The notes beneath the pieces were generated by a model, which had not been told where the DNA came from, ran no database searches, and saw only the letters and a program-made list of their open reading frames with translations. 64,000 nt of DNA. Source: Niabella agricola. GTDB taxonomy: Bacteria; Bacteroidota; Bacteroidia; Chitinophagales; Chitinophagaceae. The DNA lies in the NCBI RefSeq assembly GCF_021538615.1, contig NZ_JAJHIZ010000003.1:2852001-2916000 (forward strand), given 5' to 3'. Shown here in pieces: positions 32,187-62,692 of the stretch. Both the position numbers and the translations under genes were made by a program. Within the stretch, counting starts at the first letter, position 1; each line of letters starts with the position of its first letter.

Positions 32187-34055
32187 TTACCGACCCATAT
32201 ATACCATCAGGATTTGGATATCGCTGGGTTTAATACCGGAAATCCGGCTGGCCTGCCCCAGGGTTTGCGGCCGGATACGATTTAATTTTTCTTTGGCTTC
32301 ATTTCCAAGAGAACTTAATCGCGTATAATCGAAACCGGAGGGAATCGACAGATTTTCCATTTCACTCATCCGGTTTACCAGTTCCCGCTCCTTTTCAATA
32401 TACGTTTCATATTTGGTAAGGATGGAAGCCTGCTCCAATTCCTCCCTGGTATAATTTTTTACCTGTTCCTTCAAAAAAGGTATGGCGTCCACCAGGTTGT
32501 CCAACTCAATATCCGGTCGCAATAAGAGCTTTTCTGCCTTTTGTTTTTCCTGAATCGGGGAAGAATTATGATCGGCTAAAAACCCATTGATTTCCTCAGG
32601 CCGGAGCATAGTTTCTTTTAATATAGCTCTAATATTGACTATATTTTTATTTTTTTGCCGTATTTTATCCATTCTTTCCTCTGAAGCCAAGCCCAATTGA
32701 TAACTGATAGGGGTAAGCCGTGCATCTGCATTATCCTGGCGAAGCAGGGTACGGTATTCTGCTCGCGAAGTAAACATGCGGTATGGTTCTTCAGTCCCTT
32801 TGTTAATCAGGTCATCAATCAACACGCCGATATAGGCGTCGCTTCTTTTCAATGTAAACGGATCTTTTCCGTGTGCCTTCAAATGAGCATTGATACCTGC
32901 CATGATTCCCTGGCAGGCGGCTTCCTCATACCCCGTGGTTCCATTAATCTGACCAGCGAAGTATAAATTATATATTATTTTAGTTTCTAATGTGTTTTGA
33001 AGCTGGGTGGGGGGAAAATAATCGTATTCGATAGCGTAGCCCGGCCGGAATAAACGGACGCTTTCAAATCCGGGAACCATCTTGAGCGCTGCATATTGCA
33101 CTTCTTCCGGCAGCGAAGTAGAAAACCCGTTCACATAAATTTCTACGGTGTTCCAACCTTCAGGTTCTATAAAGAGTTGGTGTCGCTCCTTGTCTGCAAA
33201 GCGATTAATCTTGTCTTCAATACTCGGACAATAACGCGGTCCCACTCCATCAATGCGTCCGGCGTACATCGGGCTCCGATCAAAGCCTGTCTTTAACATA
33301 TCATGTACTTTCTGATCGGTATAAGTGATCCAGCAGCAGCGCTGTTTAGAGGCATCAATTTTCGGCGTATCTGTAAATGAAAAACCAACGATATCGGCAT
33401 CTCCTTCCTGTACTTCCATTTTTTTATAGTCCAGGCTCCTTCCGTCTACCCTGGGAGGTGTTCCGGTTTTTAAACGGTCACTTTCAAATCCCAGATCAAC
33501 CAACTGCTCGGTAATACCACTGGCGGCCTTTTCTGCCACACGTCCTCCCCCAAATTGTTTTTCACCGATATGAATGATCCCATTCAGGAAGGTTCCATTT
33601 GTTAATACAACCGCCTTACTCCGAATTTCATGTCCTAAACCGGTGATTACCCCCCTTACAATCCCATCCTTTACAAGTAAACCCTTTACCATATCCTGAT
33701 AGAAATCAAGGTTAGGTGTCTGTTCCAGCATTTCTCTCCACTTGGCAGCAAATAACATCCGATCGCTTTGCGCCCTGGGACTCCACATGGCGGGACCTTT
33801 TGACCGGTTCAGCATCCGGAACTGAATCATGGAAAGATCCGTAACAACCCCGGAGTACCCTCCAAGGGCATCAATTTCTCTAACAATCTGTCCCTTCGCA
33901 ATACCCCCCATTGCCGGATTACAGCTCATTTGAGCAATAGTCTGCATATTCATGGTTACCAACAGGGTTTTGGAACCCATATTAGCGGCAGCGGCAGCGG
34001 CTTCACAACCTGCGTGCCCAGCACCAACAACAATTACATCATATTCTGGAAACAT
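32187..34055 (-). CDS. mnmG: tRNA uridine-5-carboxymethylaminomethyl modification enzyme MnmG (GidA)
   Basis: 622 residues, full length for the family. N-terminal FAD motif: VIVVGAGHAGCEAAAAAANMG. Signature segments are MSCNPAMGGIAKGQIVREIDALGG, GTFLNGIIHIGEKQFGGGR, LKTGTPPRVDGRSLDY, and the C-terminal GQINGTTGYEEAACQGIMAG and TSRAEYRTLLRQDNAD. With MnmE it installs the cmnm5 group at wobble U34 of certain tRNAs using FAD and methylene-tetrahydrofolate. In many bacteria this gene lies close to the replication origin. Here its upstream region carries five parS-like sites, which supports that placement. Confidence 0.98.
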   Translation of the reverse strand: MFPEYDVIVVGAGHAGCEAAAAAANMGSKTLLVTMNMQTIAQMSCNPAMGGIAKGQIVREIDALGGYSGVVTDLSMIQFRMLNRSKGPAMWSPRAQSDRMLFAAKWREMLEQTPNLDFYQDMVKGLLVKDGIVRGVITGLGHEIRSKAVVLTNGTFLNGIIHIGEKQFGGGRVAEKAASGITEQLVDLGFESDRLKTGTPPRVDGRSLDYKKMEVQEGDADIVGFSFTDTPKIDASKQRCCWITYTDQKVHDMLKTGFDRSPMYAGRIDGVGPRYCPSIEDKINRFADKERHQLFIEPEGWNTVEIYVNGFSTSLPEEVQYAALKMVPGFESVRLFRPGYAIEYDYFPPTQLQNTLETKIIYNLYFAGQINGTTGYEEAACQGIMAGINAHLKAHGKDPFTLKRSDAYIGVLIDDLINKGTEEPYRMFTSRAEYRTLLRQDNADARLTPISYQLGLASEERMDKIRQKNKNIVNIRAILKETMLRPEEINGFLADHNSSPIQEKQKAEKLLLRPDIELDNLVDAIPFLKEQVKNYTREELEQASILTKYETYIEKERELVNRMSEMENLSIPSGFDYTRLSSLGNEAKEKLNRIRPQTLGQASRISGIKPSDIQILMVYMGR

Positions 34056-34178: not shown

Positions 34179-34543
34179 GTTCCACGTGAAACAAATCCTT
34201 AAATCAATCCAGCCTATAGCCTATAATTAAACGCGAGTTTTTTTATTTCATAACCTGTTCCACGTGAAACAGCCGGAATAATACATGATCCCTATTAATT
34301 AGAAACGCCACTGCTAAAGCAATATCTCAACATTACAAGGCGGACCCATTATTATTCCAATTTGTTGGTCGCACATAACGTTTCACGTGAAACAATGGAT
34401 ACCCTATTACTATTCCTTCCCAATATTAAATATAAATAGGCCTTATACTAATTTATAAAATACTACGATCGTTCCACGTGAAACAAATTTATTAGGTCTA
34501 TATTCAATACACCAGGTAAACCACTTTCTGTTTCACGTGAAAC
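34179..34543. promoter_or_regulatory. Cluster of five parS (ParB-binding) sites
   Basis: The 489-base gap between mnmG and ybeY contains five 14-base matches to the parS core GTTNCACGTGAAAC: 34179-34192, 34257-34270, 34380-34393, 34471-34484 and 34530-34543. The third and fifth are perfect palindromes; the other three have C in the free position. Spacing start-to-start is 78, 123, 91 and 59 bases. The background is AT-rich, so chance is negligible. ParB nucleates on such sites to load SMC and segregate the origin region. No gene is seen in this gap; ybeY starts 439 bases to the right on the minus strand and ends 2 bases after the last site. Confidence 0.93.
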
Positions 34544-34544
34544 G

Positions 34545-39371: not shown

Positions 39372-40382
39372 TTACAAACCAGCTGCAGCACTGATCTCCA
39401 ACATCCGGTCTATAGGCTTTTTGGCCGCCAATCTTAAGGATTCGTCCATAATGATGTCCGGCAACTCATACTTCATGCAGAGGTAAAGCTTCTCGAGTGT
39501 ATTTCTTTTCATATGCGGACAATCGTTGCAGGCACAGCTATTATCCGGAGGGGCTGGAATAAACGTTTTCTCCGGGCTAGCCTTTTCCATCTGATGAAGG
39601 ATGCCGGTTTCTGTAGCCACAATGTACTCGGTAGCGTCGTCTTCCCGGGTATATTTCAGCAATCCCGTAGTAGACCCGATATAATCTGCCATCCGCAATA
39701 AAGGCTCTTCACATTCAGGGTGTGCGATCAGCTTGGCGTTTGGATGCTGATGCCTCAACCTTGTGATCTTCTCAAGGCTGAAAATTTCATGTACCATACA
39801 AGCACCATTCCATAGCAACATATTCCTTCCGGTAACCTTATTGATATAGGCCCCCAGGTTTTTATCCGGTGCAAAAATAATATTCTGGTCTTTGGGAAAA
39901 CTTTCAACGATCACCCGCGCATTGCTACTCGTAACAATCACATCACTCAGCGCTTTAATGCCCGCACTGCAGTTGATATAACTCACCACCACATGATCCG
40001 GATGCTGTTCTTTAAATTTCTGAAACAACGGCGGCGGACAACTGTCGCTTAATGAGCAACCCGCTTTAAAATCGGGGATCACCACTTTCTTCGTCGGGTT
40101 CAGGATCTTCGCTGTTTCCGCCATGAAATGCACGCCCGCAAAAACGATCATATCCGCATTCGTCTTTTGTGCTTCCTGTGCCAATCCCAGGCTGTCGCCG
40201 ATGTAGTCTGCAATATCCTGGATATCCGGTTCCTGGTAGTAATGCGCCAGGATCACGGCATTTTTCTCTTTTTTCAATTTTTCAATTTCAACAAACAGAT
40301 CCAACTTCGGATCCACGGCAATGTCCAGAAAGCCATTCCGGTCCAAATCATTTTTTGCTGTTTCCAAAATACCTGAATTCAT
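39372..40382 (-). CDS. nadA: Quinolinate synthase NadA
   Basis: Start taken at ATG 40382 ([10 protein letters not shown]); the longer frame to 40418 requires TTG. About 336 residues. Landmarks are [30 protein letters not shown], the three Fe-S cysteine regions ([35 protein letters not shown]), and HPEC. It condenses iminoaspartate with dihydroxyacetone phosphate to quinolinate using a [4Fe-4S] cluster. It is the gene nearest the left side of the putative replication origin and points away from it. Confidence 0.96.
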
Positions 40383-40445
40383 GATTGAAAAATTTTGTAC
40401 CTGCAATGATACGACCAAGCCAAATAAAAAATCAAAGTTTTTTCA

Positions 40446-40860
40446 AACCGCCCTTTTTCCTTTTAATAATATTTATATTAATTATTTATTTAAAAATCTC
40501 TATTATTATTACGGCTGTGAATTAGTGGATAACTGCTTTATGCACTAATTTTATTTTTTTCCGGGTTACGGTTACCCACAGCTATTCCACAGTTATTCAC
40601 ATAATGAAGTTACGAATCATATTGGTTACGGTTGCTTATGCACAAAAATGTGAATTACGGAATGTTTACAACGGATGAAAGACATAGTAAATTTACACTA
40701 TGTTAATATTGTTGGTATAAACTGAAGACAGTCCACCAAAAATTCTAAACAGACACCGGCAAGGCAAACTTTTATCCGGTAATACATTTCACATACACGT
40801 TTCACAGTGGGTTATACACATTATTAATACGTAATTCACAGGGTGTTGGGGACAAAAAGG
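40446..40860. other. Putative chromosomal replication origin (oriC)
   Basis: The 564-base gap between nadA and the S46 peptidase gene holds no gene. It carries three exact TTATNCACA DnaA boxes (40593-40601, 40636-40644, 40812-40820). Five sites match 8 of 9 bases: 40516-40524, 40524-40532 and 40649-40657 on the minus strand, 40572-40580 and 40832-40840 on the plus strand. A strongly AT-rich stretch (40458-40510), suited for unwinding, flanks the first boxes. GGTTACGGTT is repeated at 40564-40573 and 40624-40633, and TTACGG occurs four times. Gene direction changes here: almost everything to the left reads leftwards and the first two genes to the right read rightwards. With the parS cluster 6 kb away, this points to oriC. 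Confidence 0.7.
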
Positions 40861-40914
40861 CCTCTAAAAAGACGAAAAAGCAATGGAAAGTATTAAAAAC
40901 GAATGTAAGTAAGT

Positions 40915-40928
40915 AAGTAAATTTACTT
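40915..40928. repeat. 14-base perfect palindrome before the S46 peptidase gene
   Basis: AAGTAAATTTACTT lies directly after three GTAA repeats (40905-40916) and 18 bases before the ATG at 40947. It could be an operator or just low-complexity sequence at the edge of the putative origin. Confidence 0.4.
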
Positions 40929-40946
40929 TATCTTGCCTGCTTTATA

Positions 40947-43142
40947 ATGCTGAAAATGATGACTTTTTTTAAAAAATTTTTCGGCCTGACGGCCGGATTG
41001 CTTTGCATGGGACTGGCAAAAGCCGATGAAGGAATGTGGCTCCCGCAATTACTGGAAAGCCTGAATGAAAAACGGATGCAGCAGCTGGGGATGAAAATCA
41101 GTGCAAAAGATATTTATGATATTAATAAAGGAAGCCTCAAAGATGCAATTGTAAGCTTTGGCGGATTTTGCACAGGCGAGGTTGTTTCTGAAAAAGGACT
41201 GGTGCTCACCAATCATCACTGCGGGTTTGAATCGGTACAAAAACATTCAACACTGGATAAAAATTACATCAGGGACGGCTTCTGGGCGCGGAATGGCGCC
41301 GAAGAATTACCCAACGCCGGTTTGTATGTAACATTTATTGTGCGCATTGATGATGTGTCGGACCAGGTATTAAAAGGAGTATCCAGACAAATGAAAGAAC
41401 CGGAGCGGCAAAGCATTGTTGACCGGAACATCAGCGCATTGAAAAAAGCAACAAAACTGGGCAATTCCGAAAATGTGCTGATCAGTCCTTTTTTTGAAGG
41501 GAATAAATATTATCTGTTTGTAACCGAAACCTATACAGATGTGCGGCTGGTGGGCGCTCCTCCTTCCAGCATCGGAAATTTCGGGCAGGATTCAGACAAC
41601 TGGATGTGGCCGCGGCACACTGGCGATTTTAGCGTTTTCAGGATTTATGCAGGAAAAAATAATCAGCCGGCTGAATATTCACCGGATAATGTGCCTTACG
41701 TGCCTAAAAAGGCTTTGACCATTTCTCTTAAAGGAATGCAACAGGATGACTTTACCATGGTTTTCGGATTTCCGGGCCGTACTACAGAGTATCTTCCCAG
41801 TGAGGCGGTGCGGCAGATCATGGAAGTAAATGACCCTGCCAAAATTTTGGTAAGAGACAGAACATTGAGTGTTATGAACCGGTATATGCGTGCAAATGAA
41901 GAACTGAAAATAAAGTATGCTTCAAAATATGCGGGAATTGCTAATGCCTGGAAGAAATGGCAGGGAGAAATACTGGGACTGAAGCGTACCGATGGATTAC
42001 AAAAAAAATTGCAGTATGAAGCTGCTTTTCAAAAACGACTGGATGCCAGCGACCTGCTGAAAGCCAGGTATGGCCTTACTCTTCGGGATTTGAACAACGC
42101 CTATAAAGCTATAGAACCTTACGCCCTTACACGCGACTATTATCTTGAAATTACCAGTAAGATTGAGTTGTTCAGTATCATTAAAAAATTGAGGACCTTG
42201 AAAGCGGCAACCGGGAAACCGGGTTATGAAAAAGAGCTGGCCAAACAATTGGAAAGCCTTACGGAGCTTTACAAGAACCTGAGCATTGATGTAGATAAAG
42301 ATATTTTTTCAGCATTACTTCCCTTGTATATGGAACAGCAGGCATCTTATATAGCACCTGTTTCCCGGCAGCAATTTGAACAGTATGGAAACGATTATCA
42401 ACGATGGGCCGGCGCTTTGTATGCCGGGAATTTTTTTCTTGATGCGTCAAAAGTATTAAAAGGTGCGACGTCGGATCCCTCAGAAATTTTCCGGTACTTC
42501 GAAACAGATCCGGCCGCAAAACTGATTATTGGCATGACCGATCTGTACGACATGGAAATAGCTCCCAGACTGAACGAACTTCAGGCACGGATCAACGGGC
42601 TGCAGCGGGATTATATGAAGGCCCAGACGGAAGTATTTACCGACAGAAGTTTTTATCCGGATGCCAACAGCACCCTGCGCGTGGGTTTTGGAAAAGTAGA
42701 TGACTACAAGCCGGCAGATGGGATCGCTTACAATTACTACACCTATCTGGATGGCGTTATGGAAAAATATAAACCCGGCGACTATGAATTTGATGTACCG
42801 GAAAAATTACGCCAGCTGTATCAAAAGAAAGAGTATGGCCGTTATGGGGTAAAAAACCCCGCTGGCGGTTACCGGATGCCGGTATGCTTTATTGCTTCCA
42901 ATCATACAACAGGCGGCAACAGCGGCAGCCCCGTACTGGATGCAAATGGTCAGTTGGTGGGCATCAATTTTGACCGGGTATGGGAAGGCACCATGAGCGA
43001 TATCAGTTATGATGCTTCCATTTGCCGGAACATTATGGTAGATATCCGGTATGTGTTATTCCTTATTGAAAAATATGCGGGAGCGGGTCATTTGATCCGG
43101 GAAATGAAGTTGGCTCATGCAATACCTGGTTCCCGTAAGTAA
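40947..43142 (+). CDS. S46 family dipeptidyl peptidase (DPP11-like)
   Basis: 731 residues with signal peptide (FFGLTAGLLCMGLAKA). Serine-peptidase landmarks of family S46 are LVLTNHHCGFESV (catalytic His), WMWPRHTGDFSVFRIYA (Asp region) and TTGGNSGSPVLDANG with catalytic Ser659. Eighteen residues later comes Arg677 in GINFDRVWEG. In characterised Porphyromonas enzymes the residue at this spacing (Arg673 for Ser655) distinguishes DPP11, which cleaves after Asp/Glu, from DPP7, which has Gly. DPP11-type specificity is therefore predicted. It acts in the periplasm, releasing dipeptides from the N-terminus of oligopeptides. It is the first gene to the right of the putative origin. Confidence 0.93.
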   Translation: MLKMMTFFKKFFGLTAGLLCMGLAKADEGMWLPQLLESLNEKRMQQLGMKISAKDIYDINKGSLKDAIVSFGGFCTGEVVSEKGLVLTNHHCGFESVQKHSTLDKNYIRDGFWARNGAEELPNAGLYVTFIVRIDDVSDQVLKGVSRQMKEPERQSIVDRNISALKKATKLGNSENVLISPFFEGNKYYLFVTETYTDVRLVGAPPSSIGNFGQDSDNWMWPRHTGDFSVFRIYAGKNNQPAEYSPDNVPYVPKKALTISLKGMQQDDFTMVFGFPGRTTEYLPSEAVRQIMEVNDPAKILVRDRTLSVMNRYMRANEELKIKYASKYAGIANAWKKWQGEILGLKRTDGLQKKLQYEAAFQKRLDASDLLKARYGLTLRDLNNAYKAIEPYALTRDYYLEITSKIELFSIIKKLRTLKAATGKPGYEKELAKQLESLTELYKNLSIDVDKDIFSALLPLYMEQQASYIAPVSRQQFEQYGNDYQRWAGALYAGNFFLDASKVLKGATSDPSEIFRYFETDPAAKLIIGMTDLYDMEIAPRLNELQARINGLQRDYMKAQTEVFTDRSFYPDANSTLRVGFGKVDDYKPADGIAYNYYTYLDGVMEKYKPGDYEFDVPEKLRQLYQKKEYGRYGVKNPAGGYRMPVCFIASNHTTGGNSGSPVLDANGQLVGINFDRVWEGTMSDISYDASICRNIMVDIRYVLFLIEKYAGAGHLIREMKLAHAIPGSRK

Positions 43143-43552: not shown

Positions 43553-44260
43553 TTACAGGACGTTATTTGGATTGGGCACCAGCTTTAAGATTTTATGCAG
43601 GTTTTGCTGATAATTTTTGCGGTCCAGTTTATAAAAATAAGCGCCCTTTTTTGACCCGGTTTTATCCTTATCCCGCTGTTTCAACAATAACCCGGTAGAA
43701 AGCATCTTCCGGCTGAAATTACCTTTGTCAAAACTGGTTTCGAATACGTCTTCAAAAAGACTTTGTAAAAGCGGAAGTGTAAATTTATCGGGAAGCAGTT
43801 CAAAAAGGATAGCATGGGAAGTAGCTTTATACTGCAATCTTTTTTTTGCCATTTTTACCATCTCTTCATGATCAAAGATCAGGTTGGGGAAGTCCTTTAT
43901 TGAAAACCACTCGGCCTGGTAAGCATCGCTCAAAATTTCCCTGTATTTTTTTAAATCGATCAGTGAAAAATAAGCAATGGAAATGGTGCGTTCCTGCGTA
44001 TCCCTGCCGGGATTTGTAAAGGTATAAAACTGTTCCTGGTAGATATCTGTAAGACCGGTCAGCGAAGCCAGGATCCGGCTTGCCGCCTGGTCGGCACTTT
44101 CATTTTTTGCAACAAAGCCTCCCATCAGGCTCCACCGGCCTTTTAGCGGAGTAAGCGCGCGTTTTATCAGCAGGATCTTCAGATTTTGTCCGTCGTACCC
44201 GAAAACGATGCAATCCACCGCTACGGTATAACGTGATTGATTACTATATTTTGCCGCCAT
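43553..44260 (-). CDS. NUDIX-domain transcriptional regulator (NrtR/AraR-like), catalytically degenerate
   Basis: 235 residues. The N-terminal Nudix fold begins YTVAVDCIVFGYDGQNLKILLIKRA, with GRWSLMGGFV. The Nudix box that follows (AKNESADQAASRILASLTGL) lacks the REUxEE residues needed for hydrolysis. The C-terminal ~80 residues form a winged helix (ATSHAILFELLPDKFTLPLLQSLFEDVF, GNFSRKMLSTGLLL). In Bacteroidota such proteins are sugar- or NAD-responsive repressors (NrtR, AraR). The loss of the catalytic residues supports sensing rather than enzymatic work. The target genes are not evident; it is flanked by unrelated genes. Confidence 0.85.
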   Translation of the reverse strand: MAAKYSNQSRYTVAVDCIVFGYDGQNLKILLIKRALTPLKGRWSLMGGFVAKNESADQAASRILASLTGLTDIYQEQFYTFTNPGRDTQERTISIAYFSLIDLKKYREILSDAYQAEWFSIKDFPNLIFDHEEMVKMAKKRLQYKATSHAILFELLPDKFTLPLLQSLFEDVFETSFDKGNFSRKMLSTGLLLKQRDKDKTGSKKGAYFYKLDRKNYQQNLHKILKLVPNPNNVL

Positions 44261-51305: not shown

Positions 51306-52196
51306 ATGGAATATAGAAGTTTAGGAACAACCGGGTGGTCTGTATCCGCACTCGCTTTTGGTTGCATGTCGTTAACCGGATCAAAGGAAGAAAGTATGCA
51401 GTTAGTTGCAGAAGCGGTAGCCGGTGGTGTCAATTTTTTTGATACGGCCGATCTTTACGATAAAGGCGAAAACGAAACGCTGGTCGGCCAGGCCTTAAAA
51501 CCCTTCCGGAAGAATATTTTCCTGGCTACGAAGGTGGGAAATCAATGGCGGGCCGACGGTTCCGGCTGGGACTGGAACCCTCGTCGTGACTATATCCTAA
51601 GCTGCGCGGAAGCAAGTTTGAAGCGGCTGCAGACGGACTATATAGATCTGTACCAGCTTCATGGAGGAACCATTGAGGATAACATCAACGAGACCATTGA
51701 TGCCTTTGAAACACTGAAACAACAGGGAAAGATCCGGCATTATGGGATCAGCAGCATCCGTCCAAACGTGATGAAAGAATATGTAGACCGTTCTTCCATT
51801 GAATCGGTAATGGTGCAGTACAGCCTGCTGGACCGCAGACCGGAGGAAGCGGTGCTATCTTTATTAAAGGAACACAATAAGGGGGTGCTGGTAAGAGGTG
51901 CGCTGGCACAGGGTATGCTGGTTGATAAACCGGCAAGGGAATACCTGGAGTACAGCAAGCACCAGGTAATGCAGTTACAGCAGGCCATCAAAGCATTAGC
52001 CGGCCGCTATTCGCCGCAGGCCTTGGCGGTACAATATGTATTGCAAAATCCTGCGGTTACCAGTGTTGTTGCCGGAATTCGTACCAGGGGGCAGCTGAAG
52101 GAGTTGCTGGCTGCCCTAAAGCCGGTAGAACCTGCTGAGCTGCAACGATTATCAGGGGTTTTGCCACCAGTATTTTACACGCAGCACCGCCAATAA
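51306..52196 (+). CDS. Aldo/keto reductase
   Basis: 296 residues of (beta/alpha)8-barrel NADPH enzyme. Signature segments are MEYRSLGTTGWSVSALAFGCMSL, FFDTADLYDKGENETLVGQAL (catalytic Asp and Tyr), IFLATKVGNQW (Lys), DYIDLYQLHGG (His), IRHYGISS and AVQYVLQNPAVTSVVAGIR. It reduces an aldehyde or ketone. The substrate is unknown; the neighbouring divergent MarR gene suggests induction by a toxic or reactive compound. Confidence 0.92.
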   Translation: MEYRSLGTTGWSVSALAFGCMSLTGSKEESMQLVAEAVAGGVNFFDTADLYDKGENETLVGQALKPFRKNIFLATKVGNQWRADGSGWDWNPRRDYILSCAEASLKRLQTDYIDLYQLHGGTIEDNINETIDAFETLKQQGKIRHYGISSIRPNVMKEYVDRSSIESVMVQYSLLDRRPEEAVLSLLKEHNKGVLVRGALAQGMLVDKPAREYLEYSKHQVMQLQQAIKALAGRYSPQALAVQYVLQNPAVTSVVAGIRTRGQLKELLAALKPVEPAELQRLSGVLPPVFYTQHRQ

Positions 52197-52236
52197 AAAA
52201 AAGTTGAAATAATTCCTTTTCAAATAAAAATATCCT

Positions 52237-52244
52237 TATTTTTG
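52237..52244 (+). promoter_or_regulatory. -7 element upstream of tRNA-Asn
   Basis: TATTTTTG fits TAnnTTTG 49 bases before the tRNA. A matching -33 element is not clear. Confidence 0.4.
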
Positions 52245-52292
52245 CAACCCTTAATCGCCCGGATGTATATCTAAGTGATCAAGTGAATAAAT

Positions 52293-52366
52293 TCCTCCTT
52301 AGCTCAGTTGGTTAGAGCATCTGACTGTTAATCAGAGGGTCGCTGGTTCAAGTCCAGCAGGGGGAG
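52293..52366 (+). tRNA. tRNA-Asn (anticodon GTT)
   Basis: Full cloverleaf: acceptor TCCTCCT paired with AGGGGGA (one T-G wobble), D-arm GCTC/GAGC, anticodon stem CTGAC/GTCAG-type with loop containing GTT, and T-arm GCTGG-TTCAAGT-CCAGC. Discriminator G52366. Mobile-element genes begin right after it, so its 3' end is the likely left attachment site. Confidence 0.95.
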
Positions 52367-53036
52367 CTGAAAATCAACTATTTACAAGGGTCGCACTACG
52401 CGGCCCTTTAAATTTGCCAGTAATTTGCCAGTGGCATATTTAGCAGTGAAGCAAAGAGCTGTTAACAGTATAAATTTACTGCTTTTTCAAACAATACAGA
52501 TCGTTCTAATGAAATAGCTACACACTATTAGAAACTTTCCATATCCCATATCTAATGCCCAAATTATTCTTACGATGACTTTTTGGTCAATTAGCAAAAC
52601 CTTCAACGTGGAACCAAAAAACCGGGAGCTGATTAGTACCAACCGATATTAATATTGTCTCTCCGAAATAAGGCGGTGACGCTGCCAAAATGGGCCACCT
52701 TTGATTGATCTAAACGGCATTTTCCTTCAAAATGAAACTGTCAAAAACAATCTAATTGAAGAATCACCAAATGGCGGCCATTTATAAGAATATTAAGCTT
52801 TTCTGCCGAAATTGGAAATAGTTATATAATCACAAATAAATCGAAATTGCTTTGGTCAGCGAAACCTGTGGGTTACTTGCAGTAATCGTGGTAGTTTTTG
52901 CCCGTAAACTCAGGTTTGTTTCAATATTGTAAGTTCGCCTTCATACTTTGAAATGAAATTTATAACGATCCTCCCTGAACTAAAACTGACTCTATAAATA
53001 GCTCCCTGGTAAAAGTTCTCCCTTTCAAAATTTCCA
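52367..53036. other. Gene-poor junction between tRNA-Asn and the element (probable attL side)
   Basis: Apart from the tRNA terminator, 670 bases carry no convincing gene. There is a tandem pair of TTTGCCAGT motifs (near 52413-52433). On the minus strand, directly from the toxin stop codon (TGATG), a 25-codon frame MEILKGRTFT starts, which I do not recognise. The base composition is more AT-rich than the housekeeping region. I cannot place the exact recombination point; the only firm fact is that accessory genes start here. Confidence 0.4.
52386..52411 (+). terminator. Terminator after tRNA-Asn
   Basis: AAGGGTCGC (52386-52394) and GCGGCCCTT (52400-52408) pair with one G-U, and a short T-containing tail follows. 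It ends the tRNA transcript and shields the element behind it. Confidence 0.6.
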
Positions 53037-53582
53037 TCAATCTGGTTTGGCCTTTTCATAGGCCCAGGATGTTATTGTTACCGGTTTGTTGGGCATTACG
53101 GTATCATACCCGGCTTCCAGTAAAATGCCATCTTTAATACCCTGACGGGTTGCCGTCAACTGGTGATAAAACAATCGGATACCACCACTATTATAGTTTT
53201 TTGTATTGTCGTATTCGGTGTCGCGCGTTACCTTAATTATTCCAGGTATGTTTATTTCCGCTGCCAGTTGGTCGTAATACTCCTTTTTCTTTTGAGAATT
53301 AGCTGGTTTATCGTTTTTTGGATTTTCGTTGATGCCTAATACTGCTGGCGGATCAATATGGATATCTATATCTTCAGAAAAGCGGTCAATGATTCCATAC
53401 GCTTTGGATAAAGAGGTTCCTCCTTTCAACTGGAAGTTATATCCCTGTTTTTTTAGCCCGTACAGGCTGTGCATTATCCAGTAATCTTTTTCAATAAGTG
53501 TGTCCAGTATTCCAGTCTCATCTTGTAATATCCGGAGCAGGTCACCAAAATCATTATGTTCGTGCAGGTATATTTCTTCCAT
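53037..53582 (-). CDS. AbiEii/AbiGii-type nucleotidyltransferase toxin, C-terminally truncated
   Basis: 181 residues, whereas complete members are usually ~280-300. The nucleotidyltransferase core is present: KDYWIMHSLYGLKKQGYNFQLKGGTSLSKAYGIIDRFSEDIDIHI, with the GGTS and D-x-D residues. The protein stops at SWAYEKAKPD, where full-length relatives continue for ~100 residues. These toxins block growth by modifying tRNA or similar targets and are held in check by an AbiEi-type antitoxin. The preceding gene, ending 3 bases before this ATG, is that antitoxin. The toxin is probably inactive unless it reads on by recoding. Confidence 0.8.
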   Translation of the reverse strand: MEEIYLHEHNDFGDLLRILQDETGILDTLIEKDYWIMHSLYGLKKQGYNFQLKGGTSLSKAYGIIDRFSEDIDIHIDPPAVLGINENPKNDKPANSQKKKEYYDQLAAEINIPGIIKVTRDTEYDNTKNYNSGGIRLFYHQLTATRQGIKDGILLEAGYDTVMPNKPVTITSWAYEKAKPD

Positions 53583-53585
53583 AGC

Positions 53586-54158
53586 TTATGCCAACAAAGG
53601 ATTAAAAAATTTGACGGTAGCAACCTTTCCAAACCGGTTCACCAATGCTTTGAGCCGGCGCGCATCCATGCCTTTTGTTTTTTCTTTTACTTTCTCCAGC
53701 ACAACATCACGATCCTCTGCCAGTTCGTTTATGTTATTTACAAGGTCCACCAACAGAAACTCATCTGTTACTTTCAGCGGTACATAAGGCTTGCGAACAA
53801 AGTTAAAAACTCGGTTTCCCAATTTAAACTCGCCGTGGCGTTTTAAATTATATACCTTCTTAGTGTTGTAGAGTTGAGTGGTTCCTACGCCCAGAGTATT
53901 GTAGTCGTTATAGGAGGTAAGAAGAAAGTTTGTATCTTTTAAAAAGGACGTTATCAGCTCTTTGTCATTGGCCGGTGCTTTGCCAAACACGGTCTGTTTA
54001 GGCACATAATAAAGTCCTCCGGAAAGTTTTTCCAGGGTTCCGTCTGTTACCAGTTGTTGCAAATGCCGGTCTACAGATTTAGACCATTTCTCTAAATCTC
54101 GCCGCCGGTATACCTCACCCGGCCTTAAATTTCTTTTTAAAGCCTGTAACTTACTCAT
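53586..54158 (-). CDS. AbiEi-like antitoxin / transcriptional regulator (type IV toxin-antitoxin)
   Basis: Start at ATG 54158 (MSKLQALKRN). 190 residues: N-terminal winged helix (VYRRRDLEKWSKSVDRHLQQLVTDGTLEKLSGGLYYVPKQ) and a C-terminal helical domain (LLVDLVNNINELAEDRDVVLEKVKEKTKG). This is the DUF6088/AbiEi pattern. Such antitoxins repress their own operon and counter the AbiEii toxin without direct binding. The promoter -7 element TACCTTTG (54170-54163, minus strand) is only 5 bases from the ATG, so the transcript would be nearly leaderless. The 268 bases upstream hold no gene. Confidence 0.82.
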   Translation of the reverse strand: MSKLQALKRNLRPGEVYRRRDLEKWSKSVDRHLQQLVTDGTLEKLSGGLYYVPKQTVFGKAPANDKELITSFLKDTNFLLTSYNDYNTLGVGTTQLYNTKKVYNLKRHGEFKLGNRVFNFVRKPYVPLKVTDEFLLVDLVNNINELAEDRDVVLEKVKEKTKGMDARRLKALVNRFGKVATVKFFNPLLA

Positions 54159-54426
54159 AATGCAAAGGTACAAATAAAGGAAAATGTATGAAAAATAATT
54201 AAAAATTCATGCAAATATTGTGATATAAAATTTATTATCAGTGTGTTATATTATAGTCAATAAATGTCAATAAGCTGACAAGTTACTCAAAAGCCTAATT
54301 TGGAAGGGATCGAACCTCTTAAAAGGGATATTTCTTGCTGAGTAAAAAGGCCTGCCTTTGAAAAAGCTGGCCGTTGCTAACCTATGAAAAACACCAATTT
54401 TAAAGTACAAAATATTATCTGATTCA

Positions 54427-55107
54427 TCAATGCCCCGCCGCTTTCCGTAATTTGCCGGCTTCAGATTTTAGCTTTTCTGCCTCTTTCACTCTATTATATG
54501 CTTCCTGCAGCAGGCCCATATTTTTTCTATTTTCTTCCTCTTTTGTAATCACTGAATCCCTCAATCCTGAATTATTGGTATATGCCTGGTCCACTTTGTC
54601 CAGGTAGCGCTGTAGTGGAGTGAAGGCAGTATCTAACCGCATAAGCCGGTACTTGGTGTCATTTCCCTGGAATTGCTCCAGCTTTTGATAAGTGTTGTAC
54701 CACCCACAGCAAAGCAGGCAGACTGCAATAAAAAGAACCCCGGTGGCAACAATGATCTTATGTACATGATGGTGATGCTCCAATTTTTGGATCACCGGTT
54801 CGGATAACTGTTCACGTACAGCGGATAATTCTCGGCGCAGTGCTTCTATTTCCTTAGCAGGAAAATTCTGGTTGCTGATAATATACCCCAATTTTTCTGC
54901 TTCCCTTTTTACTACAGCTACTGTATTATTTTCGGTAAGTTTCTGCTGCTGCTGGTTATCAATAACCTGCTGAATTTTCCCATGCTGCTCTTTAACTTCA
55001 CCCGTCAGGGCCGTAATATTTTTGTTGCTTTCCTGGTACCTTTCAGAAAATTCATTCAACACAAACAGTACTGATTCTTTTTCCTCGGTGTTTATTTTTT
55101 CTTCCAT
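54427..55107 (-). CDS. Coiled-coil membrane protein of the mobilization module
   Basis: 226 residues: a charged, coiled-coil-prone N-terminus (RYQESNKNITALTGEVKEQHGKIQQVIDNQQQQK), a His-rich stretch HHHHVHK, one central membrane helix (IIVATGVLFIAVCLLCCGW), and a second coiled coil (RVKEAEKLKSEAGKLRKAAG). I do not recognise a domain. It lies 33 bases after the relaxase on the same strand. Proteins of this shape often follow relaxase genes in Bacteroidota mobilizable elements, possibly linking the relaxosome to the membrane. That role is inferred. Confidence 0.6.
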   Translation of the reverse strand: MEEKINTEEKESVLFVLNEFSERYQESNKNITALTGEVKEQHGKIQQVIDNQQQQKLTENNTVAVVKREAEKLGYIISNQNFPAKEIEALRRELSAVREQLSEPVIQKLEHHHHVHKIIVATGVLFIAVCLLCCGWYNTYQKLEQFQGNDTKYRLMRLDTAFTPLQRYLDKVDQAYTNNSGLRDSVITKEEENRKNMGLLQEAYNRVKEAEKLKSEAGKLRKAAGH

Positions 55108-55140
55108 GATGATATAGGTTTCTGTTTTTAGAAAAGTTTA

Positions 55141-56163
55141 CTAAATGCCAAAGCCGCGTTTTTTCTTCTTCTTTTTATTGTAGCGGTAGTATTGTTTCAT
55201 GGCCTCGGCTGCAGACAGTTCGTCCGGTGCGGGGTAATAGGTTTTAAAAAGTTCGGCCACCAGGTCGGCTGCTGCGCTCGCAATCTGGAAGTCGACCTTG
55301 CTCACATCGCTTAATCCTGAATCAAGTATTCCTGGGATAAAAGGTGTGTGCGGGGAGAACGGTTTGTCGACTTTTTGGCCATCGGGCCCTATTTGCAGCA
55401 CCTGTTTTGCCTGTAGGATCTTTTCAATGGTGGCTAAGGAATAGCCCAGCTCTGAACCTTTTACCCGCACTTTTTTGTCATCAATAAATGTAATTCCCCG
55501 CCCTTTGATAACAGTATAGCCCAATTGCTCCATTTTTCCGGAGAAGTCAGCCAGGTTTGTCGCCTGCCTGAGACAATGCTTCAGGTCTTTCTTCATCTTT
55601 TCTTTCCGGGCATCATGCCTGGGCAATAGCTGCTGATCCTTGGGTAAAAATTGTTTGGGGCTGAGCACGGGGGTAAGCCCGTATTGCTTTTCCAATCTCC
55701 GGCAGAGCTTGTCCATTTTGTAAAAATTATTACTGGTGCTGGCGGCTTTCCCGTCAAAGCCCACCCGGTTCGCTACCAGGTGAATGTGCTGCTCTTTGGT
55801 GTCGTGGTGCTGAACGACAAGGTATTGGTTACCAGCAACACCTAATTCTTTGGCCATTTCTTCTGCAACGGATAACCACTGGTGGCGGGCAAGTGTTTCT
55901 CCAGGAGCCAACCGGATAGAGGCATGCAACACGGGTTTTTCTACCCGTTTGCTCAGTTTTTTTACGTCTCCGAACTGTTCGGTCAGCTCCTTTTTATTCC
56001 CGTAACACTGGTTATAGGCCAGTACCTCCGCCCGGTTTTTATGGCGTAAACCATCGCCAGCCGTCAATTCTTTTTTCTTTTCATCGGTCAGTCGCTGCTT
56101 ATCTTCCAAACAGTAACCAATACAATGGGCAAACGATTTTCCTATGGTTATTGTAGCGATCAT
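55141..56163 (-). CDS. Relaxase / mobilization nuclease (MOB family)
   Basis: 340 residues with conserved relaxase motifs. The N-terminal catalytic Tyr region is ITIGKSFAHCIGYCLEDK. The three-His metal site is HHDTKEQHIHLVANRV, near residue 119-134, followed by NNFYKMDKLCRRLEKQYGL. The C-terminus is Lys-rich (NKKKKKKRGF). It nicks the element at oriT and stays covalently attached during conjugative transfer with help from another element's secretion system. Its ATG overlaps the mobC TGA (ATGA), so the two are coupled. Confidence 0.93.
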   Translation of the reverse strand: MIATITIGKSFAHCIGYCLEDKQRLTDEKKKELTAGDGLRHKNRAEVLAYNQCYGNKKELTEQFGDVKKLSKRVEKPVLHASIRLAPGETLARHQWLSVAEEMAKELGVAGNQYLVVQHHDTKEQHIHLVANRVGFDGKAASTSNNFYKMDKLCRRLEKQYGLTPVLSPKQFLPKDQQLLPRHDARKEKMKKDLKHCLRQATNLADFSGKMEQLGYTVIKGRGITFIDDKKVRVKGSELGYSLATIEKILQAKQVLQIGPDGQKVDKPFSPHTPFIPGILDSGLSDVSKVDFQIASAAADLVAELFKTYYPAPDELSAAEAMKQYYRYNKKKKKKRGFGI

Positions 56164-56543
56164 TGTAAATAATTTTTAATGGAGGATGCAATTCCCTTCA
56201 GCTCTTTGGATAAAATATCCAGCGCTGCACGATCCACCGGCGTTAAAATATCCGTTACACTGTTATGCCGTTTTGTAAGCTGGTTCAGGTTTGCTGCCAT
56301 GTGATTGAGGGTGCCGGTAAGCAATAAAACTTCTTTGGGCAGCGCTTTTTCTGTTACGACAATTTGTCCATGCAGCCCCATTGAGCGCAAAAATTCTGAT
56401 AAAGTCATCCCTGCTTTTTTAGCGTTACCGGCGATTCGTACCTGCTCATACCGGCTGCATTTAAGCGCCAGCACTACATTACGTTTAATGGCCTTAAACG
56501 GCCTGCCGCCTTTATTTTTAGTAGGTTTATCTTCCTGCTTCAT
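56160..56543 (-). CDS. MobC-type relaxosome accessory protein
   Basis: 127 residues of ribbon-helix-helix/MobC family: GGRPFKAIKRNVVLALKCSRYEQVRIAGNAKKAGMTLSEFLR is the DNA-binding part. LLLTGTLNHMAANLNQLTKRHN follows, with IASSIKNYLQ at the end. It binds next to oriT and helps the relaxase open the DNA. The candidate oriT region lies just upstream (56544-56919). Confidence 0.9.
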   Translation of the reverse strand: MKQEDKPTKNKGGRPFKAIKRNVVLALKCSRYEQVRIAGNAKKAGMTLSEFLRSMGLHGQIVVTEKALPKEVLLLTGTLNHMAANLNQLTKRHNSVTDILTPVDRAALDILSKELKGIASSIKNYLQ

Positions 56544-56919
56544 AGGATTGTCTTATTTTTCGAATGCCACCCCAAGCGGCATGAGAAGCCCCCGAATCAC
56601 GCCCCAGCGGGATGAGGGGCCAGCCGTTTTGGTATTACCAAACCATTGCTGGCTACCTCAACGTCGAAAAGGCTTTCCCGTATTTGATCGTTCAAAATGT
56701 TCGTCATTTTATTTGCTGTAGGAGGCTTTAAATGCTATTTAACTGTTACGACTTTGGAGTTAAACAGCAAGGGGCCAATGTGCAACATTTGGTACACCTT
56801 GCCATTCCCTTCGATGGGGATTAAGGAAAGCTATGTTACCGGCTTAATCGCCGTTTTATAATTCCCGGGGCATTTCTTTTATGCAATAATTCGCGGCGGA
56901 AAAATTGGCAGTTGTTGTA
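56544..56919. other. Gene-free region upstream of mobC, candidate oriT
   Basis: 376 bases without a gene, between mobC and the frame-broken hypothetical gene. It contains several inverted repeats: TTTGGTA-T-TACCAAA (56628-56642), an imperfect CCAATGT/ACATTTGG dyad (56775-56792), and ATGCC/GGCAT (56563-56582 area). oriT sites of mobilizable elements usually lie directly upstream of mobC/relaxase genes and carry such repeats next to the nick site. The nick site itself cannot be named. Confidence 0.45.
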
Positions 56920-57308
56920 TTACCGCAGCTCATCCTTGTTGAAAACTTTCGGATTGTCAACACCATATTTGCGGAGATTATTTTTTAGGTTCATCCATAG
57001 CTGGATATTGTAATCGGCAATTTCATGGAGGTCTGTATCTGTTAAACCAAATGGATTTTGTACCGAACCGGTGCCGTTTTTTCGTTGCTGACCTGAGGAA
57101 GAAGTGCGGTTGTATCTGCACTGCCCGCAACATTTTGCGGCTCTATGTAGGAAAAAATTGTTGGGGCTGATCCTTCCCCGATCTGTAACGCTGGCCCAAT
57201 AGCCATGCTGTCGCCATAAAACCGGATCTGCTTTCCTGAACTTAAATGCAATGTTCTTTTCTTAAAATCTGCCATTGTTTTTGTTTTTTTCGTTAAAAAA
57301 TATTTCAT
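56920..57308 (-). CDS. Hypothetical mobile-element protein, frame broken at an A6 tract
   Basis: The first part from ATG 57308 (overlapping the primase TAA as TAATG) reads MADFKKRTLHLSSG... IFSYIEPQ. In its own frame it ends at TAA after APVRYKIHLV. One base back, the frame reads on smoothly as NPFGLTDTDLHEIADYNIQLWMNLKNNLRKYGVDNPKVF and ends at TAA 56920. The switch lies at six A's (minus strand; T's at 57077-57082): one more A would give a single ~129-residue protein. The conserved position after the primase gene suggests a transfer- or replication-related role in the element, but no family is recognised. Confidence 0.65.
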
Positions 57309-58273
57309 TACCTGCCAAGGCCTAAGCTCCGCTTTTGGACACGATGAATCGTTTCATCAATTTCATTTTTTGCCTGTCCCTGCTTCTGTAAGGAGCGGTT
57401 TTGCCGGGTCAGCCATTCGTTCAGGTCCGCATAGCCCTCATAAAGCAGGCTGTGATCTTTGTATTTTGAATTTTCCTTTACAAGCTGAGCCGTACATTTT
57501 AGCCCGGCGTTATCACGATCCAGGTATAGATAAACGGAAGCATGCTGCTCTATCAGCATGCGGGATTTTTCCAAAAAAGCCAGGGAGTTGAGCACTAAAA
57601 TGTTTGTATTATTGACGGCAGTCTTTTGAATGGCAGCATAGGTTAGAAAATCGAAGAAGCCTTCAAAAACGCTGATTTCATTGGCGCTGTTGTTTAAAAA
57701 GGATATGTTTTTGGGTGCTGCGCTGCCTTTAAAATGCGTATTGCGCAACTCGTAACCCCCAGCATCATTAGCAAAACCAATGGCGTAATATTTTCTGTTA
57801 TTGAGCTCATATTGTACTTTCCGGCAATATCCCCGGGCTATTCCAAGCGGTATTTTCCGTTGCCCCAGATAAGCAATGAGCGCGGATGACACAATTGGGC
57901 CGGTAGATAACACCTGGATTTTCTTCTCTTTATCAGGGAGCGGAACATTACCCGAATGCGATAAGTTTTGCAACGGATTGCGATGAAAAGAAAGAAAATC
58001 CTGCAACCTGGTCAATGCCTCCGGAATACTACAGCTGTGATACAACATGCAGAGGTCAACAATACTGCCCCCTTTGCCAATCCCATGATCATACCACAGG
58101 CCCTTTCTCCGGTCAACTTTAAACGAAGGAGTGTTTTCACTTCTGCCGGGCAGTGGGGATAAATACCAGTATTCCGGGTTGCGGCGTATCCGGGAGTCAG
58201 GATAGTGACCCAGAGACTCCAGGTAATCGACTAGGTCGATTTGTTTTGCGTCGGTTGTAGTAAAGCGTTTCAT
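57308..58273 (-). CDS. Toprim-domain DNA primase of the mobile element
   Basis: 321 residues: an N-terminal CHC2-like zinc-finger region (YWYLSPLPGRSENTPSFKVDRRKGLWYDHGIGKGGSIVDLCMLYH) and a C-terminal toprim domain with ISVFEGFFDFLTY and VYLYLDRDNAG. Such primases accompany relaxase genes in Bacteroidota mobilizable elements and make primers for the complementary strand after transfer, or for element replication. It overlaps the HTH gene by ATGA and the next gene by TAATG, so three genes form a tight operon. Confidence 0.9.
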   Translation of the reverse strand: MKRFTTTDAKQIDLVDYLESLGHYPDSRIRRNPEYWYLSPLPGRSENTPSFKVDRRKGLWYDHGIGKGGSIVDLCMLYHSCSIPEALTRLQDFLSFHRNPLQNLSHSGNVPLPDKEKKIQVLSTGPIVSSALIAYLGQRKIPLGIARGYCRKVQYELNNRKYYAIGFANDAGGYELRNTHFKGSAAPKNISFLNNSANEISVFEGFFDFLTYAAIQKTAVNNTNILVLNSLAFLEKSRMLIEQHASVYLYLDRDNAGLKCTAQLVKENSKYKDHSLLYEGYADLNEWLTRQNRSLQKQGQAKNEIDETIHRVQKRSLGLGR

Positions 58274-58569
58274 TTTTCATTCGGTTGATAGTGAATGTTC
58301 TTTTTTTGTTTCACGTATTCCAATACTTCAGACCGGATAAAGTAAACCCGGCCGCCCTGTTTATGAAAAGGCAGGCCGCGCTTCATCCAATCATGCAGGG
58401 TTACAAGGGAGATCCGGAACATGCCTGCGATCTCTTTCCGGTTAAGCAAGGGCTCGCCTTCCTCATTGTTTTGATTTGTGGGCGCGGGAATATTTTCCAG
58501 GCATTCTTTAATGGCGTCCCTGATTCACCGGCGAAAATCTCCTTCATTAGGTAAAAAAAATGTATCCAT
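58270..58569 (-). pseudogene. HTH (MerR/excisionase-like) DNA-binding protein with in-frame TGA
   Basis: From ATG 58569 the frame reads MDTFFLPNEGDFRR, then TGA (58525-58527). It continues in the same frame IRDAIKECLENIPAP and into a typical winged-helix excisionase domain, PLLNRKEIAGMFRISLVTLHDWMKRGLPFHKQ, GGRVYFIRSEVLEYVK, ending at 58270. The length is exactly 100 codons with the stop codon at position 15, so a TGG (Trp) to TGA change is the simplest reading. A second possibility is ATG 58547 (MKEIFAGE) with one missing base joining the same body. Such proteins control excision or replication of Bacteroidota elements. It overlaps the primase ATG. Confidence 0.7.
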
Positions 58570-58621
58570 AAAAATTCGTTTTATGGAGGCAAGATGAGTT
58601 AAGGAAAAGGCAAAGTCAATG

Positions 58622-58635
58622 CACGATGCATCGTG
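58622..58635. promoter_or_regulatory. 14-base perfect palindrome upstream of the HTH gene
   Basis: CACGATGCATCGTG is perfectly self-complementary and lies 53 bases upstream of the HTH start, in the 200-base gap before the HlyD gene. It could be the binding site of that HTH protein or of another regulator of the transfer genes. Nothing else is seen in this gap. Confidence 0.5.
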
Positions 58636-58769
58636 TATTCTCAATGATTGATAATAAGCCGATTAAGGGCGGTTAATTATGGCAGGGTGAATAAATTAGA
58701 CCACTCGCTGGATTGTATACTTGTCTGTGTAAGCTTTTGGACGGGGAATAAATTATGATTCTTATCGTT

Positions 58770-60113: not shown

Positions 60114-60126
60114 ACGTGCAGAGTTT

Positions 60127-62337: not shown

Positions 62338-62352
62338 TTTTGAGATAGTTTT

Positions 62353-62685
62353 TTATTGGTTTTCACACAATTTGAACACAGTGATTTCAGAAAAACAAAG
62401 TTCTCCGCCGCTCTCAATTTTGGCGATATCTTCTCGAGACAGAATATGACCATTTCGTATAAAAAGAGCATCGACCATTTTTCCGTCTTCAGCGTAATAG
62501 TACGTATTACGCATCCGATCGAATTTTATAGGGAATCCCAGTTCTTTCATTTCTTGTATTACTCCGGCCATGGCGCTTTTGCATAAATTATTTTTACTAG
62601 CGAAGCTCTCCAAATCTCCAGTTGCTTTCTTTTTAATCATGTGATCTATAAATCTGATGCGATTTATATGTTTTAGAATAGCCAT
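62353..62685 (-). CDS. Small putative winged-helix protein of the export operon
   Basis: 110 residues. The N-terminal part (RIRFIDHMIKKKATGDLESFASKNNLCKSAMAGVIQEMKELGFPIKFDRMRNTYYY) resembles an HTH/winged helix of the WYL-regulator type. It is followed by a short C-terminal tail with ELCFSEITVFKL. It may be a transcriptional regulator of the peptide operon. It lies 7 bases after the VKOR gene and 15 bases before the exporter on the same strand. The fold call is by eye. Confidence 0.55.
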   Translation of the reverse strand: MAILKHINRIRFIDHMIKKKATGDLESFASKNNLCKSAMAGVIQEMKELGFPIKFDRMRNTYYYAEDGKMVDALFIRNGHILSREDIAKIESGGELCFSEITVFKLCENQ

Positions 62686-62692
62686 AGGTTTT

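Follow-up and report, generated by a model that had tools for sequence, protein, structure and literature searches.

The gene-free gap at positions 40419-40946 of the window analysed here, a stretch of 64,000 nucleotides (C3:2852001-2916000) from the 4.95-Mb contig of the 6.26-Mb, three-contig genome of Niabella agricola, is almost certainly the chromosomal replication origin (oriC) of this Niabella-type genome. The original prediction of a probable chromosomal origin at this place is supported by a cluster of DnaA boxes, by a switch in GC skew and by the conservation of a core sequence, together with its box cluster, at the same place in other genomes. The layout of this origin recurs in many relatives of the family and includes one unexplained element.

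Gene neighbourhood of the candidate origin

The gap measures 528 bp, is 69% AT and lies between nadA (quinolinate synthase; 39372-40418, minus strand; PF02445, E 3.2e-123), which flanks the side of the predicted unwinding, and a gene for an S46 peptidase (40947-43142, plus strand; PF10459, E 1.6e-226), which flanks the side of the box array. Gene direction thus changes at the gap, as had been predicted. At a distance of 6-8 kb lies mnmG (gidA; 32187-34055, minus strand; PF01134, E 6.8e-161), a gene commonly situated near origins.

About 3 kb from the gap and from nadA there is a gene combining a NUDIX domain with an NrtR-type winged-helix regulator (43553-44260); NrtR proteins control NAD synthesis, and this one may control nadA. 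Two 19-bp copies of AGTAAATTTAC (40686-40704 and 40916-40934), spaced by 230 bp, possibly represent a promoter or a regulator site; the second copy immediately precedes the S46 gene. A promoter scan returned five sites against 3.4 expected, and an Rfam search of 40000-41500 gave no match; therefore, we claim no RNA element here. To the right of the gap, a low-GC stretch (0.37-0.47; 52000-64000 of the window and L029) codes for a MobA-type relaxase (55141-56163), a toprim/zinc-ribbon primase-like protein (57308-58273) and a C39-peptidase ABC exporter with an HlyD protein (58770-62337). The stretch resembles a mobilizable element in the vicinity of the origin.

A dense cluster of DnaA boxes

Three exact copies of TTATNCACA are present in the gap (40593, 40636 and 40812), and the earlier count of three exact DnaA boxes is correct if this sequence was meant; no exact TTATCCACA occurs in 40419-40946. 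When matched to TTATCCACA, the gap contains five sites with at most one mismatch and 11 with at most two, so that the five near boxes first reported were an undercount. When the gap was shuffled 2000 times with its dinucleotides preserved, 3, 5 or 11 sites in the respective categories were never reached, the shuffle means being 0.05, 0.2 and 2.5 and the maxima 2, 3 and 10. An intergenic cluster of DnaA boxes exceeding chance, one of the marks of an oriC, is hence present, with 11 sites of at most two mismatches in 528 bp.

The cluster was also compared with the rest of the genome, by means of 681 kb of sampled sequence (11% of the genome) and of the core model described below. In this sample, the best other 528-bp stretches had two sites with at most one mismatch and eight with at most two, the latter number being attained by three stretches, of which one lies 3 kb downstream from dnaA. 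A stronger cluster elsewhere, which would have spoken against the prediction, was accordingly not encountered in the 681 kb. Over the whole genome TTATNCACA is found at 240 places. Inside the window, no 500-bp stretch away from the gap has more than two boxes with at most one mismatch.

The boxes form an ordered array, in which distances marked with a plus sign are counted from 40506, the start of the pattern used in the cross-species scan. Proximal to the trinucleotide tract, TAATTCACA (40516-40524, minus strand, two mismatches) abuts TTATCCACT (40524-40532, minus strand, one mismatch), with one base shared. They are followed by the weak box TTATGCACT (40538-40546, plus strand), by TTACCCACA (40572-40580, plus strand) at the recurrent position +66, by the weak box TATTCCACA (40583-40591, plus strand), and by TTATTCACA (40593-40601, plus strand), TTATGCACA (40636-40644, plus strand) and a second TAATTCACA (40649-40657, minus strand) at the recurrent positions +87, +130 and +143, respectively. 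Farther out lie TTATACACA (40812-40820, plus strand) at +306, the recurrent position being about +305, a third TAATTCACA (40832-40840, plus strand) at +326, and the weak site TTGTCCCCA (40847-40855, minus strand), which is inside the conserved stretch TTGGGGACAAA.

The repeated motif GGTTACGGTT, which had also been pointed out, does occur twice (40564 and 40624) but has not been kept even among the closest relatives; it was therefore dropped as a candidate iteron and is no defining part of the origin.

The core: AT-rich stretch, trinucleotide tract, spacer and paired boxes

On the nadA side, the core begins with a putative unwinding region (DUE; 40451-40499) that is AT-rich in all 20 aligned genomes, own included. 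AT content reaches 92% at 40456-40505, in agreement with the AT-rich stretch of the original prediction and with the AT-rich element expected to adjoin the boxes of an oriC; the 30 most AT-rich 60-bp segments fall in three places, one of which is 40451-40514. Next comes a DnaA-trio-like trinucleotide tract (40500-40511, minus strand), reading (YTA)4 on the plus strand and TAATAATAATAG on the minus strand, which is separated from the paired boxes by a GC-rich spacer of 4 bp (40512-40515). The tract shows a period-3 constraint in the relatives, being near-invariant except at the Y positions. Likewise, (YTA)4 stands on the plus strand in the 54 nadA-linked loci of the cross-species scan, where variation is nearly confined to the Y positions; of the six positions in the two tract units that lie outside the search pattern, five are conserved in 52-53 of these 54 loci and the outermost base varies.

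According to the available excerpt of PMC8287927, the permissive rule for a basal unwinding system (BUS) calls for a box with at most two mismatches and a second with at most four, within 16 bp of the trios. Here, TTATCCACT (one mismatch) lies 12 bp and TAATTCACA (two mismatches) 4 bp from the tract, and the window has four NAN units where the rule asks for at least three. The stringent trio is given in the corresponding excerpts as 3'-[G/A]A[T/A]-5' after a GC cluster (PMC7561715) and, in its complementary-strand form, as 5'-YTD-3' (PMC8235120); we dropped the tract as a candidate textbook GAT-trio on account of its misfit to this form in strand and polarity. On the strand corresponding to that used in B. 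subtilis, read 3' to 5' from the boxes towards the DUE, the units are 3'-CAT TAT TAT TAT-5' and do not agree with the stringent consensus as excerpted, which is matched perfectly by RAT units on the opposite strand. Across the 68 loci of the scan, at least three NAN units are found in 64 and two in the other four, with two units fixed by the search pattern. In E. coli, DnaA takes a correspondingly oriented T-rich strand that carries TTATT words; therefore, by analogy, a plain E. coli-like reading of the tract strand is possible.

GC skew and the distant dnaA gene

The cumulative GC skew has its minimum at 40805, inside the gap, both in the window and in the window extended by the next 20 kb, with a curve that is nearly flat from 40 to 64 kb and a second-lowest point at 63787. 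Along the 4.95-Mb contig, for which samples taken beyond the window locate the switch only roughly, skew was negative in 17 of 17 stretches to the left of the gap and positive in 12 of 12 to the right. The sign change proposed as a check of the prediction is thus found at the gap, and it runs from negative to positive, as at an oriC. Inside the window the skew to the right of the gap is weak and mixed (mean +0.003), perhaps owing to the low-GC, mobile-looking region. On contig C2 it turns from positive (three stretches, up to 0.67 Mb) to negative (two stretches, from 0.95 Mb), as expected of a terminus, and the single stretch on contig C1 is negative. Two 16S genes are present. One, at C3:1.53 Mb on the minus strand of the main contig, is directed away from the gap, as expected for an origin; the other, on the small unplaced contig C1, is uninformative on the gap.

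The gene for the protein with all three DnaA domains is located at C3:4516605, 1.62 Mb from the gap. As stated beforehand, dnaA is not adjacent, and this neighbourhood, usual for an oriC without defining it, is not seen here. The surroundings of dnaA have positive skew without a change of sign, one TTATNCACA box in 18 kb, nine sites with at most one mismatch scattered over those 18 kb and one stretch with eight sites of at most two mismatches. The assumption that oriC and dnaA are separated in many Bacteroidota accords with the available excerpt of PMC4755523, where an oriC far from dnaA is stated to be common in Bacteroidetes.

A parS array and dispersed genes for its presumed binders

Five exact parS sites (34179-34193, 34257-34271, 34380-34394, 34471-34485 and 34530-34544) lie 5.9 kb from the gap, where an array 6 kb away had been predicted; the consensus used was GTTYCACGTGRAAC, as also read from the window. 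These five are the only exact sites in the genome (5/5), and their clustering near a candidate oriC is that of a ParB-parS segregation site. The genes for ParA and ParB are side by side at C3:1.97 Mb, 0.92 Mb from the gap. With oriC and parS together and with dnaA and parA/parB remote, the cis sites are clustered while the genes of their presumed binders are dispersed. Among eight relatives tested, seven have exact parS about 5-9 kb from the core and one (G020) has no exact site. A second protein with a ParB_N domain is encoded by a 610-aa frame at C3:1.68 Mb (G000:C3:1675742-1676029, L183).

Conservation in relatives

A 601-bp region was matched in 21 of 39 genomes, own included: in 17 of 17 from the genus (16 and own), in three of seven from the rest of the family and in one of 15 from the rest of the order, the last match being a 36-base stretch that was left out of the alignment count. 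The core, comprising the AT-rich stretch, the tract, the GC spacer and the paired boxes, aligns without gaps in 20 genomes (own and 19 relatives). It is unique in its own genome, scoring 58.4 bits against 13.0 for the next best with a model whose 20 training sequences include the own core. In a class-wide search with this model, at least seven of 149 genomes (own included) gave a match, with 40 candidates scored per genome. The conservation of both position and sequence, seen in the 21 of 39 genomes and in the nadA neighbour at 54 of 68 loci, is again what an oriC is expected to display.

We found dnaA in all eight relatives tested. In six of them it shares a contig with the core and is far from it, the distance being 1.3-1.8 Mb in five single-contig assemblies of good quality; the sixth, G003, has a dnaA that is split into separate frames. 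The match in this genome (G003:C1:4118010-4118460) is in three pieces, two of them with a stop, and the completeness of the genome is 72%, which suggests frame errors in the assembly. In the five single-contig relatives, skew is positive in 23 of 25 stretches to the right of the core and negative in 20 of 25 to the left, with a clear pattern in G011, G007 and G008, a fair one in G004 (three of five left stretches negative) and a weak one in G020 (two of five).

The core across species genomes

The pattern YTATTANNNNTGTGRATTNGTGGATAA was scanned over the species genomes of GTDB, with neighbouring genes identified by protein probes from the window, and 68 loci were recovered; Niabella pedocola and N. 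drilacis are among the species that carry the core (L120 and L128). In 54 loci nadA adjoins the core, in every case on its AT-rich side and transcribed away from it. The S46 peptidase gene is found on the opposite side in 29 (27 of the 54 nadA loci and two more). There are 14 loci without a nadA match. Two of these (L134 and L150), with only 111 and 204 bp of sequence on the nadA side, have the S46 gene; five have mnmG at 1.9-3.9 kb (one record from Calditrichaeota, the other four from Bacteroidota), with no more than 8-10 bp of sequence on the nadA side in L122 and L181; in three no probe matched; and four lie 161-302 bp from dnaA.

The four dnaA-linked loci are labelled Parcubacteria, Kaiserbacteria, Yonathbacteria and Acholeplasmatales, and nadA was not found within the 0.6-5.3 kb on that side. 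They belong to six loci labelled outside Bacteroidota, the other two being one with mnmG 3.9 kb away, whose sequence does not extend into the nadA side, and one with nadA (L164). As a gene-free pattern derived from Niabella and its relatives lands beside dnaA in unrelated phyla, these loci support the reading of the gap as an origin and serve as its best independent control.

Over the 68 loci of the scan, boxes with at most one mismatch number 6.57 per kb in the 493 bp next to the core against 0.47 per kb elsewhere, the core being excluded; its inclusion gives 8.57 per kb, a figure inflated by boxes fixed by the search pattern. At least two such boxes outside the core are present in 57 of 68 loci, and one locus has none.

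Two individual records stand out. L164 is labelled Beijerinckiaceae and carries a nadA-linked origin of the Bacteroidota type, with a nadA that is 74% identical; its contig or bin is probably mislabelled. L159, from the Sphingobacteriales bin PMG_148, has nine exact TTATNCACA boxes no more than 520 bp from the start of the core, the maximum among the other 67 loci being three.

Box spacing classes and a second conserved element

The positions of the boxes recur in two spacing classes, although the recurrent boxes are not present in every locus. In a class of 20 loci the commonest positions are 66, 87, 130, 143 and 305-306 (each in 6 to 15 loci), and in a class of 14 loci they are 55, 76, 119-120, 132 and 294 (each in 4 to 8 loci), the array being offset between the two by 11 bp, moved as one block. 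Helical phasing of distal boxes has been shown experimentally in B. subtilis, according to the excerpt available (PMC6669920); by analogy, the 11-bp shift is only suggestive of such phasing.

A conserved non-canonical element, TTTCACATACACGTTTCAC (40787-40805, plus strand), consists of a direct repeat of TTYCAY half-sites 13 bp apart. In the form TTTCAY-N6-GTTYCAC, this second element is located at a few fixed distances and is unlike a good DnaA box. The 9-mer ACGTTYCAC is found in 37 of the 68 loci; counted from the start of the pattern, it lies at 277-282 bp in 14 of them, at 288-292 bp in 20 and at 365 bp in three. The related form [AGT]TTTCAY-N5/7-GTTYCAC, with its first half starting at 342-355, is present in 13 more, many of which belong to Niastella, Longitalea and Pseudoflavitalea, and the remaining 18 loci have neither. 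In the own genome the 19-bp element has one exact copy and one more at two mismatches; allowing up to three mismatches gives 17 matches against 21 for the reversed control, and therefore no genome-wide set of element sites is seen.

GTTYCAC equals half of a parS site, for which reason ParB is named as a candidate binder of the second element; weak DnaA sites are the plainer reading. We see about an even chance that the element is a pair of low-affinity DnaA sites, so that only an ordinary box array would be present. TTYCAC(A) is similar to a DnaA box over the latter's 3' half, the element is 6 bp from a good box, and its 19-bp form is without another exact copy in the genome, as would suit a part of the orisome. 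However, the first letters of the 9-mer, ACG, are unlike TTA and yet are kept, with the whole 9-mer, in 18 of the 20 aligned genomes, an alignment that was not chosen by the motif, and several genera share the direct repeat of the half-site at 13 bp. It seems rather unlikely to us that the origins of the family constitute a distinct architectural class, with a recurring box array fixed relative to a second element not bound by DnaA, the halves of which resemble half a parS site, and with the trio strand opposite to that of Bacillus; the binder of the element would then perhaps be ParB or else some initiation regulator. If this were true, initiation would be licensed by a family-specific second factor, and the polarity of the filament on trios would not be universal.

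Proposed function and alternative explanations

From the arrangement of these sites we infer a course of initiation. DnaA, made 1.62 Mb away, would bind the ordered box array at 40516-40840, and the abutting boxes at 40516-40532 would anchor a DnaA filament running across the GC spacer into the trinucleotide tract and opening the AT-rich stretch at 40451-40499. Helicases would be loaded at this stretch and two forks would depart, one via nadA and the parS/mnmG region and the other via the S46 gene, while ParB, encoded 0.92 Mb away, would act on the parS array to segregate the newly copied origins.

The site of the skew switch, at the gap and not at dnaA, argues against the idea that the gap serves for regulation by DnaA, such as that of nadA, or for the titration of DnaA (datA- or DARS-like), with replication starting elsewhere. 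DnaA boxes can indeed control promoters, nadA starts within about 120 bp of the trinucleotide tract, and the NrtR-type regulator gene at 43553-44260 is close by. However, the core has an AT-rich stretch and a trinucleotide tract besides its boxes, the same core stands beside dnaA in the four loci with labels of other phyla, with no nadA in 0.6-5.3 kb, and the genome has exact parS sites nowhere else; we hence hold such a region to be highly improbable. We attach equally little weight to an origin at another nearby site, such as the parS/mnmG region, with the gap as an auxiliary box cluster. The coarse bracketing of the skew switch outside the window, the near-flatness of the curve from 40 to 64 kb and the frequent occurrence of mnmG as an origin neighbour would be compatible with it. 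However, the cumulative minimum at 40805 falls inside the gap, no 500-bp stretch of the window off the gap exceeds two boxes with at most one mismatch, and the conservation of the core singles out the gap.

The placement of oriC in the gap has practical consequences. The origin is well supported in Chitinophagaceae, where dnaA as the usual marker misleads by 1.3-1.8 Mb (five single-contig relatives), and a genome numbered from dnaA therefore has the wrong zero point; in G007, one of these relatives, base 855 is where the match to the dnaA domain begins. The core pattern, on the other hand, finds candidate origins directly in draft genomes. Moreover, the recurring spacing, the second element and the question of the strand provide testable hypotheses on DnaA filaments beyond the Bacillus and E. 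coli models.

Comparison with known origins

The oriC predicted by Ori-Finder in Prevotella intermedia OMA14 likewise has a skew switch and DnaA boxes far from dnaA, the available excerpt (PMC4755523) describing no core tract, neighbour gene or box geometry. The origin described here is ordinary in kind, and an oriC far from dnaA in Bacteroidetes is already in print in that excerpt. Neither nadA nor the origin of Chitinophagaceae is named in the excerpts of PMC10225481, PMC6323995 and PMC2768785, and among the papers listed in literature searches no title or abstract opening describes a nadA-linked origin; a prediction in DoriC or in a supplementary table may well exist.

With the B. subtilis BUS, as presented in the excerpts of PMC8287927 and PMC6669920, the gap shares tandem DnaA boxes, a short GC spacer, repeated trinucleotides and an AT-rich stretch, with further boxes on the far side; the first of these excerpts gives BUS as widespread. 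Between the better of the paired boxes in Niabella and the tract there are 12 bp, or 11 bp in the NAN register, a spacing that falls within the 10-13 bp peak in print, as far as the excerpted text goes. Unlike the B. subtilis system, the Niabella gap is not beside dnaA, and its corresponding strand reads 3'-YAT-5' (CAT, TAT) in place of the excerpted 3'-GAT-5', with perfect 3'-[G/A]AT-5' on the opposite strand.

In the oriC of E. coli the DUE is beside box R1. Like the Niabella gap, this oriC has TTATT words on a T-rich strand that adjoins a box pointing inward, mnmG (gidA) in its vicinity and a dnaA gene that is not its immediate neighbour. By contrast, no 13-mers or GATC array were seen in the Niabella gap, which has two abutting boxes, a different box layout and a parS array. 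What appears to be new, as judged from sequence and to a modest degree, are the box positions recurring across genera, the second element at a few fixed distances and the GAT-type trios on the strand opposite to that of Bacillus.
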